Shown here in pieces: positions 54,301-62,971 of a stretch of DNA of 64,000 nt. A program made the position numbers and the translations under genes. The notes under the pieces were generated by a model that did not search any database, was not told where the DNA came from, and saw nothing but the letters and a program-made list of their open reading frames with translations. The stretch lies in assembly GCA_027459665.1 (NCBI GenBank), contig DAIDHN010000008.1:1-64000 (forward strand), written 5' to 3'. Numbering within the stretch: the stretch's first letter is position 1; the number at the start of each line of letters is the position of its first letter. Origin of the DNA: Chthonomonadaceae bacterium. Lineage in GTDB: Bacteria; Armatimonadota; Chthonomonadetes; Chthonomonadales; Chthonomonadaceae.

Positions 54301-54330
54301 TTGACAATTATTATTTTTTCGTGTTAATAT
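54301..54330 (+). promoter_or_regulatory. Strong sigma-70-type promoter of the exported-protein locus
   Basis: A perfect TTGACA at 54301-54306 and TAATAT at 54325-54330 are 18 bp apart, inside a very AT-rich stretch. Transcription would start near 54337, giving an ~80-nt leader with AGGAGG before the ATG at 54416. Confidence 0.75.
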
Positions 54331-54415
54331 TCATTGTTCCTGATGCATATGCAAGCGCAGGAAGTTCTGCGAAATGTCTTGACTGCTATTCAACGATTTC
54401 AGGAGGAAACAACAA

Positions 54416-55176
54416 ATGAAACACCTTTCGTCCCCCCCCCGCGCACGGCCCGCTGCCTGACTGCAGGCAGGTGCTGTCTCTTTATCGGCAATGATGCAAT
54501 GAAGCACAGCATGGCTGCATCTGTCTGGGTAGTTCTATGCATCGCCCTGTTGATCACTGCAAGCCCAAAAAAAGTATATGGGCAGATAACATACACCGTA
54601 ACAGTAGAAACTACGGGGATTGTGTATTATGGCGGACCGTCTGGCACAGGCCCGGGTGAAATTGGAACGGGCAGTCAGAATGAGCCTGCCAGCGGCCCGG
54701 TCACCACTTTTGGAGATAATGTTACAGAGAGCATGAGCGCAGCCGGAACCAGGCAGGAGATATCAGCAGCATATATAAAATGTGATACCACTGTGAATGT
54801 TTCGTACCTGGCGCCCACTGCACAAAACGGCGGGGGATATGGCTCTGGGGATGTGCTGATGGACACCATGGCGCTTAAGCTTTCTGCAAACATTGCAAAT
54901 GCCAACGGCGGGGATTCATGGATTAAAAACGATAGCACAAGCAGTTTTAATGGTATGTCACCGCTATTGAGTACCTGGGGATCAGACTTGAGCCTGCTCA
55001 GAGTGACTGGAGCAACCCAGGCAAATCCCCAGATAGAGGCATTTTTCCCTATTGGCCAGAACGTTTCAGGCTCCGCCATGATGGAGGGTTATATGATGGT
55101 TAGCCCGAATGTGAACGGCCCGCAAACTGCCAATCTCTCATTCACGATTTCTTTTCAGCCGCAGTCTCCCAACTAG
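54416..55176 (+). CDS. Exported beta-rich protein, start frame interrupted by a C9 tract
   Basis: The best start is the ATG at 54416 behind AGGAGG, but that frame stops after 14 codons (TGA at 54458) because of a run of nine C at 54432-54440. With ten C it would enter the long frame and encode about 254 residues. An in-frame ATG at 54499 (KHSMAASVWVVLCIALLITA, a signal peptide) gives 225 residues but lacks a clear site. The mature protein is Gly/Ser/Thr-rich and all-beta (TYTVTVETTGIVYYGG; LSFTISFQPQ), with one Cys. I do not recognise the family. It heads a run of exported genes. Confidence 0.6.
54432..54440 (+). repeat. Homopolymeric C9 tract
   Basis: Nine consecutive C lie six codons into the frame opened by the strong ribosome-binding site. 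Tracts of this length are prone to slipped-strand change and could switch the gene on and off. A sequencing length error is the alternative. Confidence 0.75.
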
Positions 55177-55200: not shown

Positions 55201-56127
55201 ATGAAGCGTACCAGCCATGCTGTTGTCTTGTTTTTGGCGCTGCAGTTACTTTGCCTTGCAGCGCCCTGTTCGGCCCAGCAGTACTACTCTGCGAAGGCAA
55301 AACATCTTCTTGCCCGTCCTGTTCACCTCATGCTTGGTCAAACTACCATAGACAAGCTGCTGGTTGAAATCTCCCGGCAAACTGGCTTGCATATGCAAAT
55401 GGTTCCCTGGCTGCGCGGACACCGCATGCTGTGCGAACTGCAGGGCATTTCAGCTCTGGATGCGCTGAATGCACTTGCCGCACTCAACCGCTGGAGATGG
55501 TATGAAAGCACCCATGCCGGCACTCTGGTGCTGCAGAGCAAACCCGCGGTGATGCCCCAAAACCTGATGCAGCTGTCACATGCGCTCATGCAGGATATGC
55601 CGCAAGACTTCTACACCTATATGCACACATACCACGATGGGAAAAGTGGACAATTTGCAGGCATCATCAATGCCGGAAAGAAAATGATGCGTCATTCGCT
55701 CAAGGAGTATCGTCTGACCCACAATCAGGCATACCTGGCCGACTACTATATTTTTAGTGATGGATCTGATGAGGCGATGGCCAACAGGTGGCTGATCAAC
55801 AATAACCTGCTTACGCCTCAGCACCAGTACCGAGGCGGCCCCATTCCTGCAGAGGCAGACGGCCTGCAAATAACAGATGAGCAGCGCAGGCAGGGTCTGC
55901 TCTCCCTGCTGGCACTCAAACTGGAGGGACTGCGGGTGTTTGCCACCAATCAATACCTGTTATTTAGCCATCCAGTTTTTCTACACACACTGCCGCAAAC
56001 CACCATTGTTTCTCTAGGGATTGAAAAGACTGTGACCCTGTATGCCAAATTCAGCCTCAAGGGAGCATCGCAAAGCTATATGGGGTATGACATTCCATTT
56101 TGCATGAATTTGCATCTGCCTTTTTGA
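55201..56127 (+). CDS. Exported STN-like domain protein (family member 1)
   Basis: A 308-residue exported protein. Residues 1-25 are a signal peptide (ending CSAQ). Residues about 35-105 resemble the secretin/TonB short N-terminal (STN) fold: PVHLMLGQTTIDKLLVEISR, TGLHMQMVPWL, and ALDALNALAALNRWRWYEST. The C-terminal ~200 residues are unknown and end KFSLKGASQSYMGYDIPF and LHLPF. There is no barrel, so it is not itself a receptor. Codons 194-266 lie in a 219-bp patch nearly identical to the next paralogue. AGGAG precedes the ATG. Confidence 0.7.
   Translation: MKRTSHAVVLFLALQLLCLAAPCSAQQYYSAKAKHLLARPVHLMLGQTTIDKLLVEISRQTGLHMQMVPWLRGHRMLCELQGISALDALNALAALNRWRWYESTHAGTLVLQSKPAVMPQNLMQLSHALMQDMPQDFYTYMHTYHDGKSGQFAGIINAGKKMMRHSLKEYRLTHNQAYLADYYIFSDGSDEAMANRWLINNNLLTPQHQYRGGPIPAEADGLQITDEQRRQGLLSLLALKLEGLRVFATNQYLLFSHPVFLHTLPQTTIVSLGIEKTVTLYAKFSLKGASQSYMGYDIPFCMNLHLPF
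55779..55997 (+). repeat. 219-bp near-identical direct repeat, copy 1
   Basis: Copy 1 of a direct repeat whose second copy is at 56919-57137, exactly 1140 bp away. By eye there are about ten mismatches, mostly in one 30-bp stretch, and blocks of more than 55 bp are identical. Homology continues past both ends only as weak protein similarity, which marks a recent conversion patch. Confidence 0.9.
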
Positions 56128-56168
56128 GTTCGCATAAAACAAGGCATTACCGTGAAAAGGAGAAGGCG

Positions 56169-56912
56169 ATGACAAAAAGATATTCTGTTTTGCTTTTTGC
56201 CCTGCTTTTATGGGTTGTTCGGCCAGCCAGTGCGCAAACGGGCGCTGCCGGCACAACGTCTGAAGGGCGCCTGCCTGCCCTGTTCAAGCAATCGGTACAC
56301 CTGCAGTTGAGCAATGCATCGCTGGCTGAAACGCTTGCAGCATTGCAGAAGATGACGCATCTCAGTTTTGTATGCGACAACTGGCCGCCGGTGAAACAGG
56401 CAGATATGAAGCTGAACGGTTCAGTTGTGCAGGCTCTTAATCAGATCGAGAGCGCTTTTCACTGCAGCTGGCGCTTGCTTGCAAATACTCATGTTGTGCT
56501 GATGGCGCGTGACTTTACAAACAAGCAATCCGAGTTCCCGCAGGTTGACCCTCCCGAAATACTGCATATGGCACAGCTCTTTGTGCGTGCTCTTTCGACC
56601 ATCTCACCCTACTACGCACCAAAGCAGCGTCATGCACTTGTTAAAAATGCTCTTATGCTGTTCAACCCTGCCCAATTAAACCAGTTGGAGCACAAAGGCA
56701 TACTGTTTCGAGATATGCCTCTGGGTGCGCAGAGGCTGATGAAACAGGATTTGCTGGCACGCATGATTTCGAGGCCGCTGCGGCGCTGGCAGCAGCTGGT
56801 GTACATTCTGCAACACCAGGATCAGTGGAAACTCCAGTATGTGTACACCCCACAGTATTCCAACAAAGTCTTCACCAACTATATCTACCCCGCAGAACCA
56901 GGTGGAAAGTAA
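56169..56912 (+). CDS. Exported STN-like domain protein (family member 2, N-terminal part)
   Basis: A 247-codon frame with AAGGAG before the ATG and a signal peptide (MTKRYSVLLFALLLWVV, ending ASA-Q). An STN-like domain follows: SVHLQLSNASLAETLAALQK, THLSFVCDNWPP, and LNQIESAFHCSWRLL. The frame stops at TAA (56910) just before a segment matching the C-terminal part of member 1, which stays open in the +1 frame. The gene is probably a full-length paralogue (about 366 residues) with a frame break near 56890-56910. Confidence 0.65.
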   Translation: MTKRYSVLLFALLLWVVRPASAQTGAAGTTSEGRLPALFKQSVHLQLSNASLAETLAALQKMTHLSFVCDNWPPVKQADMKLNGSVVQALNQIESAFHCSWRLLANTHVVLMARDFTNKQSEFPQVDPPEILHMAQLFVRALSTISPYYAPKQRHALVKNALMLFNPAQLNQLEHKGILFRDMPLGAQRLMKQDLLARMISRPLRRWQQLVYILQHQDQWKLQYVYTPQYSNKVFTNYIYPAEPGGK

Positions 56913-57270
56913 GTCGCAGGCCAACAGGTGGCTTATCAACAATAACCTGCTTACGCCTCAGCACCAGTACCGAGGCGGCCCCATTCCTGCAGAGGCAGAC
57001 GGCTTGCAAATAACAGATGAGCAGCGCAGGCAGGGCTTGCTTTCTTTGCTGGCAAACAAGCTGGAGGGACTGCGGGTGTTTGCCACCAATCAATACCTGT
57101 TATTTAGCCATCCAGTTTTTCTACACACACTGCCGCAGATAGCAGTCAGTTTTCAAAAAGGGTTTGGAAAACAGGTAGATCTGTTTGCCAGGTTCAGGAT
57201 CAAGGGATCGCAGAACAGCGGCATGGAATCTGATTTTATTTGCTGCAGGAATCTTAATCTGTACTTTTGA
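56913..57270 (+). pseudogene. C-terminal part of STN-like member 2, out of frame
   Basis: In the +1 frame relative to the upstream part, this segment encodes SQANRWLINNNLLTPQHQYR onward, as in member 1, and ends with LFARFRIKGSQ and RNLNLYF, a diverged version of the member 1 tail. The first 219 bp are the conversion patch; the last ~130 bp are only distantly alike at protein level. It lacks its own start. The end at 57270 is a normal stop. Confidence 0.7.
56919..57137 (+). repeat. 219-bp near-identical direct repeat, copy 2
   Basis: Second copy of the 55779-55997 repeat. It begins 7 bp after the in-frame stop of the member 2 N-terminal part. Both copies encode the same peptide with only two or three changes, so the peptide sequence itself may be under selection. 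Confidence 0.9.
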
Positions 57271-57289
57271 AGCAGGTTTGTGTTGCAGA

Positions 57290-57405
57290 GGGCGCTTTGC
57301 TTTGAAAAAGAGAAGGCATTTGGCAGGCGGCTCTGCAGTATTTGGCACCCCCTGGTTTTGTATATGACAAACTGCCACCGATAAAACAGGCAGCCACTTC
57401 CCCTT
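57290..57405 (+). pseudogene. Fragment of a third STN-like family member
   Basis: After member 2, the string TTTGAAAAAGAGAAGGC recalls the leader of member 2 (GTGAAAAGGAGAAGGC). Within 57340-57400 one frame reads LQYLAPPGFVYDKLPPIKQA, matching LQKMTHLSFVCDNWPPVKQA of member 2. The start codon, signal peptide and C-terminus are gone. It shows the locus once had at least three copies. Confidence 0.55.
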
Positions 57406-61186: not shown

Positions 61187-62971
61187 TCAGGGCAGAAAAC
61201 AGAACTCTGTGCCCTGAAAACCACCCTGGTTAAAGCCCAGGTGTACCAGCACTCTGCCCAGCACGTGCGAGGGCGCTGAGGCAGGGAAAGTAATAGAGAG
61301 AGTTGTACTTGCCCCGGGGGCAAGGCTGCCCCCTGTGAACAGGTAAGACATCGGTAGGAACTGTTTTCCACCTGCAATCAGCGAGCCGCCGGTCATTACT
61401 ATGCTGCTGGCAGAAATTGTGCCCAGGTTGCTAATGGCACAGTGAATGGTTAAGGTGCCGTCTGGATTGCGTGATGCCGAGAAAGGAGTCATGAGCAGGC
61501 GCACATACCCGGCAAGAAACACCTTGTTGTTTGAGTTGTTGGTAATGTTGGGGTCGTACACTGTGATCGGCATAGCGGTTTGGCCTGCAATGTATGAAGG
61601 CGGAAGCACTGCCTGTATGCTTGTGCTGCTGAGAACAGTGGTGGCAAGCGGGGTGCTGCCCCACATTACTATCGAGTTGCTTGCATAGCCGTTGCCTGTG
61701 AGGCTCAGTGTAAGCGGCCCTTTGCCGCCGTTGTTAATGGGCGCCTGGTTTGGGCTGAGCAGCTGGGTATAGGGACCAACGCGAAAAACCATTCCCTTGC
61801 CTGCACCGCCGTATTCGGTTACGCCAAACAGGTTGCCATTGTTCGAGCGCACCAGCGTGGCGGTAGGGCTGTTGCCATCTCCGTTGCTGCTGGTGAACGA
61901 GTAGAGAGAGTTGAACTGCCATGCGCCGGGCGTAATGCTGGAGGGAACCATGTTCCATACGGTTCCTGCTCCATATTTGCCGCCCTGGTTGGTGGTGCCC
62001 ACCAGAATGCCTGAGGGCAAAACTACTACTCCTCCGGTGGGGGTTGCTCCATCCTGGTTGTCGAAGTTGTGCAGGGTGGTGAATGCAGCAGTAGAGGTGG
62101 AATATTCGTAAACGGTTCCGTAGTAATGGCTGCCACCGCTGTAGGTAGTGCCGTACAAATTTCCCTGTGCATCCAGTGTGGGCTGCACATACGGATAGGC
62201 CCCATCCGAAAAGTTGAATTGGTGGAGGGTGGTGAAATCGTAGTGAGGTTGGTGCGGTATCAATTCGTACAGGGTGCCGGCATCCGAGCTTCCGCCATAG
62301 TAGGCAGTGCCGAAAAGATCGCCTGCGGCATCTATGCAAAGACCGCCTTCAGGGTTTGCCCCGTCCTGGTTGCCAGTAAAGTCGTACAGGTCTATAGGCA
62401 TGTAGCCAGAAGCGCTTTTTTGCAGTTTGTAAACGGTGCCAAGCTGGTTGCCTCCCCCATTGTAAGTGGTTCCAAAAATATCGCCCTGCGCGTCGAGAAC
62501 CACTCCAGAGTAGGGATTGGCCCCCACCGAGCCATCGAAACTGTACAGCGCCTGAAAAGTGTAAGGCCCGCCTGCGGTGGGAGAAAGCTCAAAAACCGTC
62601 CCCGATCCGCCCGACCCGGCAGTGTAGGTAGTGCCGTACAGGTTGCCGCTGGCATCTATCGTGAGAGTGCCATATGGTATGGCGCCATCGTTTTGGGCGG
62701 TGAAATTGTAGAGTACCGTGAAATCTCCCAGCGGATCCAGTTTGTATACAGTGCCATCTTTATGCGAGCCGCCATACATGGTAGTGCCATATAGATTGCC
62801 CTTGTTGTCTGCGGCCAGGCCCCCGTAAGGCTGTGAAGGAACAGTGTAATACCCAAAAGTATGCACAGACTCGGCCGGGTCGGAGATTGGGGCGGTAGTC
62901 GCTTTTGCTAATACCGATATGCCAGCCAGCGTGCAGCACGCCAGCAGTGTTGTTAAGGTTTTGCCATTCAT
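61187..62971 (-). CDS. Exported GloVer-repeat protein with IPT/TIG-like domain
   Basis: A 594-residue exported protein. A signal peptide of about 24 residues is followed by about eight ~45-residue repeats of the GloVer type (GNLYGTTMYGGSHKDGTVYKL, spaced by LYNFTAQNDGA and similar), predicted to make a beta-propeller. Residues about 400-480 look like an IPT/TIG immunoglobulin-like domain (LSLTGNGYASNSIVMWG), and the last ~100 are another beta sandwich. No PEP-CTERM or other anchor is visible at the C-terminus (TEFCFLP). It is probably secreted; the ligand is unknown. The ribosome-binding site is weak. Confidence 0.85.
   Translation of the reverse strand: MNGKTLTTLLACCTLAGISVLAKATTAPISDPAESVHTFGYYTVPSQPYGGLAADNKGNLYGTTMYGGSHKDGTVYKLDPLGDFTVLYNFTAQNDGAIPYGTLTIDASGNLYGTTYTAGSGGSGTVFELSPTAGGPYTFQALYSFDGSVGANPYSGVVLDAQGDIFGTTYNGGGNQLGTVYKLQKSASGYMPIDLYDFTGNQDGANPEGGLCIDAAGDLFGTAYYGGSSDAGTLYELIPHQPHYDFTTLHQFNFSDGAYPYVQPTLDAQGNLYGTTYSGGSHYYGTVYEYSTSTAAFTTLHNFDNQDGATPTGGVVVLPSGILVGTTNQGGKYGAGTVWNMVPSSITPGAWQFNSLYSFTSSNGDGNSPTATLVRSNNGNLFGVTEYGGAGKGMVFRVGPYTQLLSPNQAPINNGGKGPLTLSLTGNGYASNSIVMWGSTPLATTVLSSTSIQAVLPPSYIAGQTAMPITVYDPNITNNSNNKVFLAGYVRLLMTPFSASRNPDGTLTIHCAISNLGTISASSIVMTGGSLIAGGKQFLPMSYLFTGGSLAPGASTTLSITFPASAPSHVLGRVLVHLGFNQGGFQGTEFCFLP

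Follow-up and report, generated by a model that had tools for sequence, protein, structure and literature searches.

A three-gene cassette of a putatively phase-variable exported protein and two stand-alone STN-domain proteins in part of the Chthonomonadaceae

STN domains are known as parts of secretins, of TonB receptors and of their regulators. Phase-variable genes with homopolymeric tracts are known from Neisseria, Campylobacter, Helicobacter and Bordetella. Free-standing exported proteins with an N0 domain have been described, namely DotD (PMC2951367) and the VirB7 of Xanthomonadaceae (PMC3093366), both of them type IV secretion lipoproteins. PupB and PupR interact through their STN domains (PMC7186176). 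Here we compare these systems with a locus found in the window, a 64-kb stretch (positions 1 to 64,000 of contig DAIDHN010000008.1) of a Chthonomonadaceae genome, which we refer to as G000.

The locus lies on the forward strand and starts with gene X (54334..55176), an open frame for an exported beta-rich protein with a signal peptide and a mature part from about 54583. Gene A (55201..56127), preceded by a Shine-Dalgarno GGAG just upstream, encodes an exported STN-domain protein of 308 amino acids, and gene B (56169..56912), with its stop TAA at 56910-56912, is an intact gene for an exported STN-domain protein of 247 amino acids. Behind B, on the same strand, lie remnants of a second A and a second B. 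The former, A' (56912..57270), is a C-terminal third only, made up of one copy of a repeat block (56919-57137) and a diverged tail; it is in a frame other than that of B and lacks a start, an N-terminus and a signal peptide. The latter, B'' (57327..57393), recognized by its similarity to B, is a scrap of 22 amino acids, 12 of them identical to B (E 7e-5; 39 bp at 79%). This anatomy, with cassette, two-copy block and remnants, is secure.

A preliminary description of the locus had taken two adjacent exported STN-like proteins for members of a single tandem family with a shared domain order, the second of them frame-broken just before the block and followed by a third fragment. The STN-like character stands, for A by fold and for B by profile, but A and B are different genes of a three-gene cassette, and the third fragment is present as the B remnant B''. 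One frame-broken gene spanning ~56161-57270 is ruled out. B (56169-56912) aligns from its signal peptide to its C-terminus with the B proteins of seven other loci. Several of these stop shortly past a P-x-P-G-E-like stretch, which the window B also approaches, so that a natural end is the best reading of its stop. The block behind B belongs to A'. Elsewhere in the window, a large exported protein encoded on the reverse strand (61187-62971) has repeated 'GNLYGTTYYGG'-like units and a weak IPT/TIG match.

The structural model of A contains a confident STN/N0 domain at residues 38-112, arranged beta-alpha-beta-beta-alpha-beta, with pLDDT of about 80-91 over residues 31-110; based on predicted structure and fold search together, the domain extends over about residues 38-116 (55312..55548). 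The remainder of the protein, mainly helical with a short beta stretch at its end, was modelled poorly (mostly pLDDT < 50), and structure searches with this C-terminal part were uninformative. Foldseek and VIA group the A domain with secretin N0 domains, PupR, FpvA, PupA, FecA and DotD, the VIA matches including the EscC periplasmic domain (Z 10.8), PupR (9.3), InvG (8.9) and DotD (8.2). The fold of A alone names no function because phage and contractile-injection baseplate proteins score alike against it (Z 8-9). The Pfam STN family (PF07660) matched neither A nor B of the window, reached E 0.066 for the better of two weak A members, and was over the cut-off in none of the seven genomes tested. 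Because Pfam does not recognize the domain, A is an STN protein by fold and not a Pfam member, and the earlier STN assignment is right in the former sense (VIA Z up to 10.8). In an hhalign comparison B matches A at 96.9% (E 1.6e-10, 141 columns), with the match limited to the signal peptide and the STN part, and on this profile match B is predicted to carry the same STN domain. A search of PDB sequences with the A and X profiles returned no relative.

A shares with secretins (EscC, InvG, PilQ) and with transducers and regulators (FecA, FpvA, PupR) the predicted fold at residues 38-116 (VIA Z 7-10.8), export, and the position of the domain beside the signal peptide. In contrast to secretins and TonB-dependent transducers, the A and B proteins (247-311 amino acids) contain no recognizable secretin or TonB-receptor barrel domain, and A has in its place a small, fast-changing and mainly helical C-terminus without a family. 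DotD and VirB7 are likewise small exported proteins whose folded part is the N0 domain, and they provide precedents for what the preliminary description had called an unfamiliar kind of free-standing exported STN protein. Whereas those two belong to type IV secretion systems as lipoproteins, the signal peptides of A and B look ordinary, both proteins have a C-terminal extension, and no secretion genes lie nearby.

The model of X is all-beta (pTM 0.63). Its best fold match, Bdellovibrio Bd1399, is a single outstanding one (Z 11.1, 145 aligned residues, 3.3 Å, 9% identity), with the next match at Z 7.0. Bd1399 is a secreted beta-sandwich with two conserved disulfides and a function that is not established (PMC10792529). 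X resembles the elongated beta-sandwich of Bd1399 and DUF4360 in its modelled fold and in secretion, but differs in that the mature part of the window X has one cysteine, too few for the two conserved disulfides of Bd1399, that neither DUF4360 nor DUF2846 of Pfam gives it a score, and that sequence identity is low. A promoter scan upstream of X gave a 10/12 match at 54301-54330, in a region where matches are no more numerous than in shuffles.

A run of nine C (C9, 54432..54440, forward strand), the longest C/G run in the window and the proposed slip site, sits between the signal peptide of X and the only ATG that follows a Shine-Dalgarno sequence, AGGAGG (54402..54419, with the ATG at 54417-54419). 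At C9 this start is out of frame with X and gives a 14-codon peptide, and the in-frame ATG of X at 54502 is without a Shine-Dalgarno sequence. The X gene on contig C54 of the same genome also has C9 (L006:7461-7469), and its Shine-Dalgarno ATG is likewise out of frame. In the related genome G001, the X gene on contig C106 has C8 (L019:7830-7837), an out-of-frame Shine-Dalgarno ATG and, ahead of the signal peptide, no further start that could be used; that on contig C9 has (GA)9 (L021:7950-7968) and is in frame. The X gene of G004 has a 20-bp repeat in 2.8 copies just before its start (L023:1939-1995) and no homopolymer, and that of G011 has a short homopolymer, C6. Based on one assembly per species, a simple repeat lies between the start and the signal peptide or beside the start in five of the six X genes, and in the window, on contig C54 and in both G001 genes it is placed so that a change of length would switch the frame. 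Known phase-variable genes of Neisseria, Campylobacter, Helicobacter and Bordetella have the same build, with a poly-C or dinucleotide tract in the 5' end of a gene for an exported protein and a Shine-Dalgarno start out of frame. X differs from them in that it comes from the Armatimonadota and not from a host-adapted pathogen and is coupled to two STN genes. X is probably switched ON and OFF by tract length. Its translation would be switched by slipped-strand mispairing at C9, and the assembled state, with the Shine-Dalgarno ATG out of frame, would be OFF. The simple-sequence repeats, absent from the preliminary description, lend support to its suggestion of a surface or periplasmic variation locus. 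In the library searched, no paper mentions both Armatimonadota and phase variation.

A chance homopolymer is the alternative to consider here. Based on searches and sampled stretches, from which all genome-wide counts derive, the genome has 20 C/G runs of at least 9, two of them in its two X genes. Runs of 9 are no commoner than its base composition (53% GC) allows, and these data come from one genome. Against chance, tracts recur at the same position of X across loci as different repeat types, and there are 13 runs of at least 10, about five times the roughly 2.7 that a geometric extrapolation from 324 kb predicts (P 5e-6). In addition, 7 of the 20 runs lie at most 200 bp upstream of a signal-peptide-like segment, defined by a home-made criterion and not by SignalP, compared with 5.7% of random positions (P 8e-5). 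In relatives this association is weak and only suggestive (4/20, P 0.06).

Similar tracts occur elsewhere. In the same genome they lie in the N-terminal regions of three further exported, beta-looking proteins with no A or B alongside (L138:3622, C10; L139:6162, G11; L121:1513, G11), possibly a set of phase-variable exported proteins. By eye, a tract was seen in the N-terminal region of an exported protein on contig C16, and a C12 just before the Tat-type signal of an Rhs-repeat-like protein on contig C1 (L141:2232). On contig C22, a G9 (L144:4243) lies close to the C-terminus of an exported protein whose tail is PEP-CTERM-like, and a change in tract length there would alter or remove the C-terminal anchor. 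Very long or paired C/G tracts, some at contig ends, were observed in relatives from the family (L150, G002:C1:2146850-2146936; L154, G011:C21:10604, a run of 24).

A, B and the upstream X form a conserved three-gene cassette in the order X-B-A. An intact set is present on contig C54 of the window's own genome, and the three genes lie side by side at two loci each of G000 and G001 as well as in G011 and G004. A second G004 locus has B-A without X, and in G006 B-A follows a divergent exported protein, so that this cassette lacks both X proper and a tract. The B and A genes share 4 bp (ATGA) where they meet in four loci (L006, L022, L023 and L024). Out of 291 Armatimonadota genomes searched, full-length A was found in five, all of them Chthonomonadaceae (the window genome and four others), and in none of the other 286; X (E below 1e-70) was found in four of the 291. 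The remaining hits to A in the phylum are to the STN domain only, mostly inside larger proteins. The X-(B-A)n cassette is confined to part of the Chthonomonadaceae. With regard to a mobile-element origin, the cassette had no match in phages, plasmids or IMG/VR contigs, and a scan of a contig database returned only the G001 and G011 records. Searches of Pfam, NCBIfam and PHROGs gave nothing useful. The cassette is without a named family in the libraries searched, whereas its elements, an STN fold, a phase-variable tract and gene conversion, are each of a known kind. A role as a defence system was rejected, as the PADLOC profile PDC-M40A matched only one of nine A proteins, at 17.9 bits. Dependence on a particular secretin was rejected as well, as each of the seven genomes tested has two or three secretins, whether or not it carries the cassette.

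The near-identical 219-bp block of the preliminary description is real. It occurs in A at 55779-55997 (forward strand, residues about 194-265) and in A' at 56919-57137, with a spacing of 1140 bp and a gapless identity of 95.4% (blastn), and there are exactly two copies in the whole 3.67-Mb genome and none elsewhere. The copies differ at 10 sites (11 mismatches when counted over 55780-55998). Their flanks had been described as alike at the protein level only. To the left there is no similarity between the two places (identity of 1-2 in 10 bases), and to the right a weak, gapped similarity continues down to the common stop (85 of 137 aligned columns identical). In this tail, dS between A and A' is 1.2 and dN 0.5 (42 codons), compared with a dS of 0.185 in the block, a sixfold difference in synonymous divergence.

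These features could have come about through ordinary duplication and decay, an explanation that we consider possible but rather unlikely. Unequal crossing over would have produced extra copies that became pseudogenes, the block would be a recent short duplication or a chance conversion without a role in variation, and the C tract would be a chance homopolymer. The loss of the N-terminus from A' and the reduction of B'' to 22 residues agree with this, as does G001, in which the first B-A pair is followed by a ruined second one, whose B'A' remnants carry many stops. The pattern of differences within the block does not. Of the 11 mismatches counted over 55780-55998, eight are confined to 25 bp (P 6e-5 under random placement), forming an old-looking island with near-perfect stretches on both sides. 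Because the mismatches are clustered and the block has diverged far less than the tail, conversion is favoured, and the block fits conversion better than a single recent duplication, as judged in the window from the paralogue pair only (sharp borders, clustered mismatches).

Also against ordinary decay, the same kind of mosaic arose independently in G011, which is a stronger case of conversion than the window. The N-terminal halves of its A1 and A2 are separated from each other by dS 0.18 and from the G001 orthologue by 0.62-0.68. Between their C-terminal halves dS is saturated, and one of these halves matches the G001 orthologue at dS 0.53. Along the B genes of this pair identity drops from 95-100% to about 60% and returns, and along the A genes it drops from about 97% to about 55%. 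Gene conversion between paralogues is well supported in G011, where paralogues are more alike in the tract than orthologues and the borders are abrupt. This tandem pair spans a contig break (L018:1-400 and L020:6006-6475, contig ends sharing 36 bp inside B genes). The two contigs, which come from one thin metagenome assembly (coverage 1.3-1.4), probably join as X-B-A-B-A. The homogenization by recombination that had been proposed is therefore supported both by the clustered mismatches and by the clearer case of G011. Expansion and decay of the locus, also proposed, is borne out by B-A pairs that are duplicated and partly destroyed in three genomes (the window genome, G001 and G011). A single intact gene in relatives would have spoken against it; most cassettes do consist of a single A and a single B, but these three genomes also have a second pair, which in most cases is decaying.

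The two parts of A diverge at different rates. In comparisons of most loci, identity is 33-55% for the STN part (18-28% against G006) and 17-29% for the C-terminal part, and within the close G001/G011 group the values are 87-94% and 45-68%. In the fast halves synonymous sites are saturated where the comparisons differ most, and dN/dS > 1 was not obtained. Hypervariable C-terminal parts would suit a silent cassette, in which A' would be retained without a promoter to supply A with C-terminal sequence, like pilS for pilE. A' has neither a start nor a signal yet keeps an open frame to a natural stop, and eight of nine codon differences between the block copies are synonymous. We nevertheless regard this explanation as improbable, given that there is a single remnant, that the block is here homogenized and not diversified, and that the remnant in G001 is destroyed by stops.

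The reading that we prefer, to which as a whole we give a probability of roughly 0.45, is that X is probably a phase-variable exported protein and that B and A are dedicated periplasmic STN helpers with diversifying C-terminal parts. By analogy with PupR and PupB (PMC7186176), A and B probably pair via their STN domains. Their variable C-terminal parts may hold X or an envelope partner, and the two proteins would be putative dedicated helpers for the export or display of X. B-A pairs would undergo tandem duplication, exchange stretches by gene conversion, and decay. In the window, the array X-A-B-A'-B'' would derive from an ancestral X-B-A-B-A-B through loss of the first B and of the larger parts of the last two genes, which is the simplest path to this array and fits it.

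The binding of PupB and PupR to each other through their STN domains (PMC7186176), together with the match of the A model to the STN domains of PupR, FpvA and PupA, would also agree with a cell-surface signalling relay, in which A and B would use STN contacts to relay a signal to an anti-sigma factor, in the manner of TonB-dependent transducers. This we think quite improbable, since no sigma, anti-sigma or TonB-receptor gene was recognized next to the cassette at those loci where the neighbouring genes were read, and Pfam STN is over its cut-off in none of seven genomes. Duplication of the block by the assembler, which the preliminary description had named as a possible objection and which might be suspected because the repeat is short and near-identical and the genome is in 118 contigs, is very improbable because the copies differ at ten sites, have a diverged homologous tail and lie well inside an 85-kb contig, and matching duplications exist in other assemblies.

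Returning to the preferred reading of a switched X with STN helpers, we tentatively extend it to a proposal that is possible but somewhat speculative: X-(B-A)n may be a contingency system of the Chthonomonadaceae, in which a tract-switched exported protein has an STN pair as its specificity-determining partner and conversion between tandem copies and remnants shuffles the variable halves of that pair. The system would then belong to a set of phase-variable exported proteins in this genome and, by the library searched, would be the first described in Armatimonadota. With a pair of stand-alone exported STN proteins linked to a single exported protein, the cassette offers a new setting for asking what STN-STN contacts serve. 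The tracts predict that X and several other exported proteins of this genome would be ON in some cells and OFF in others. Because phase variation has been described mostly in host-adapted pathogens, phase-variable loci in a free-living phylum would broaden the range of selecting forces to consider, such as phages, predators or neighbours. The cassette suggests an unexplored way for this bacterial group to vary its cell envelope.
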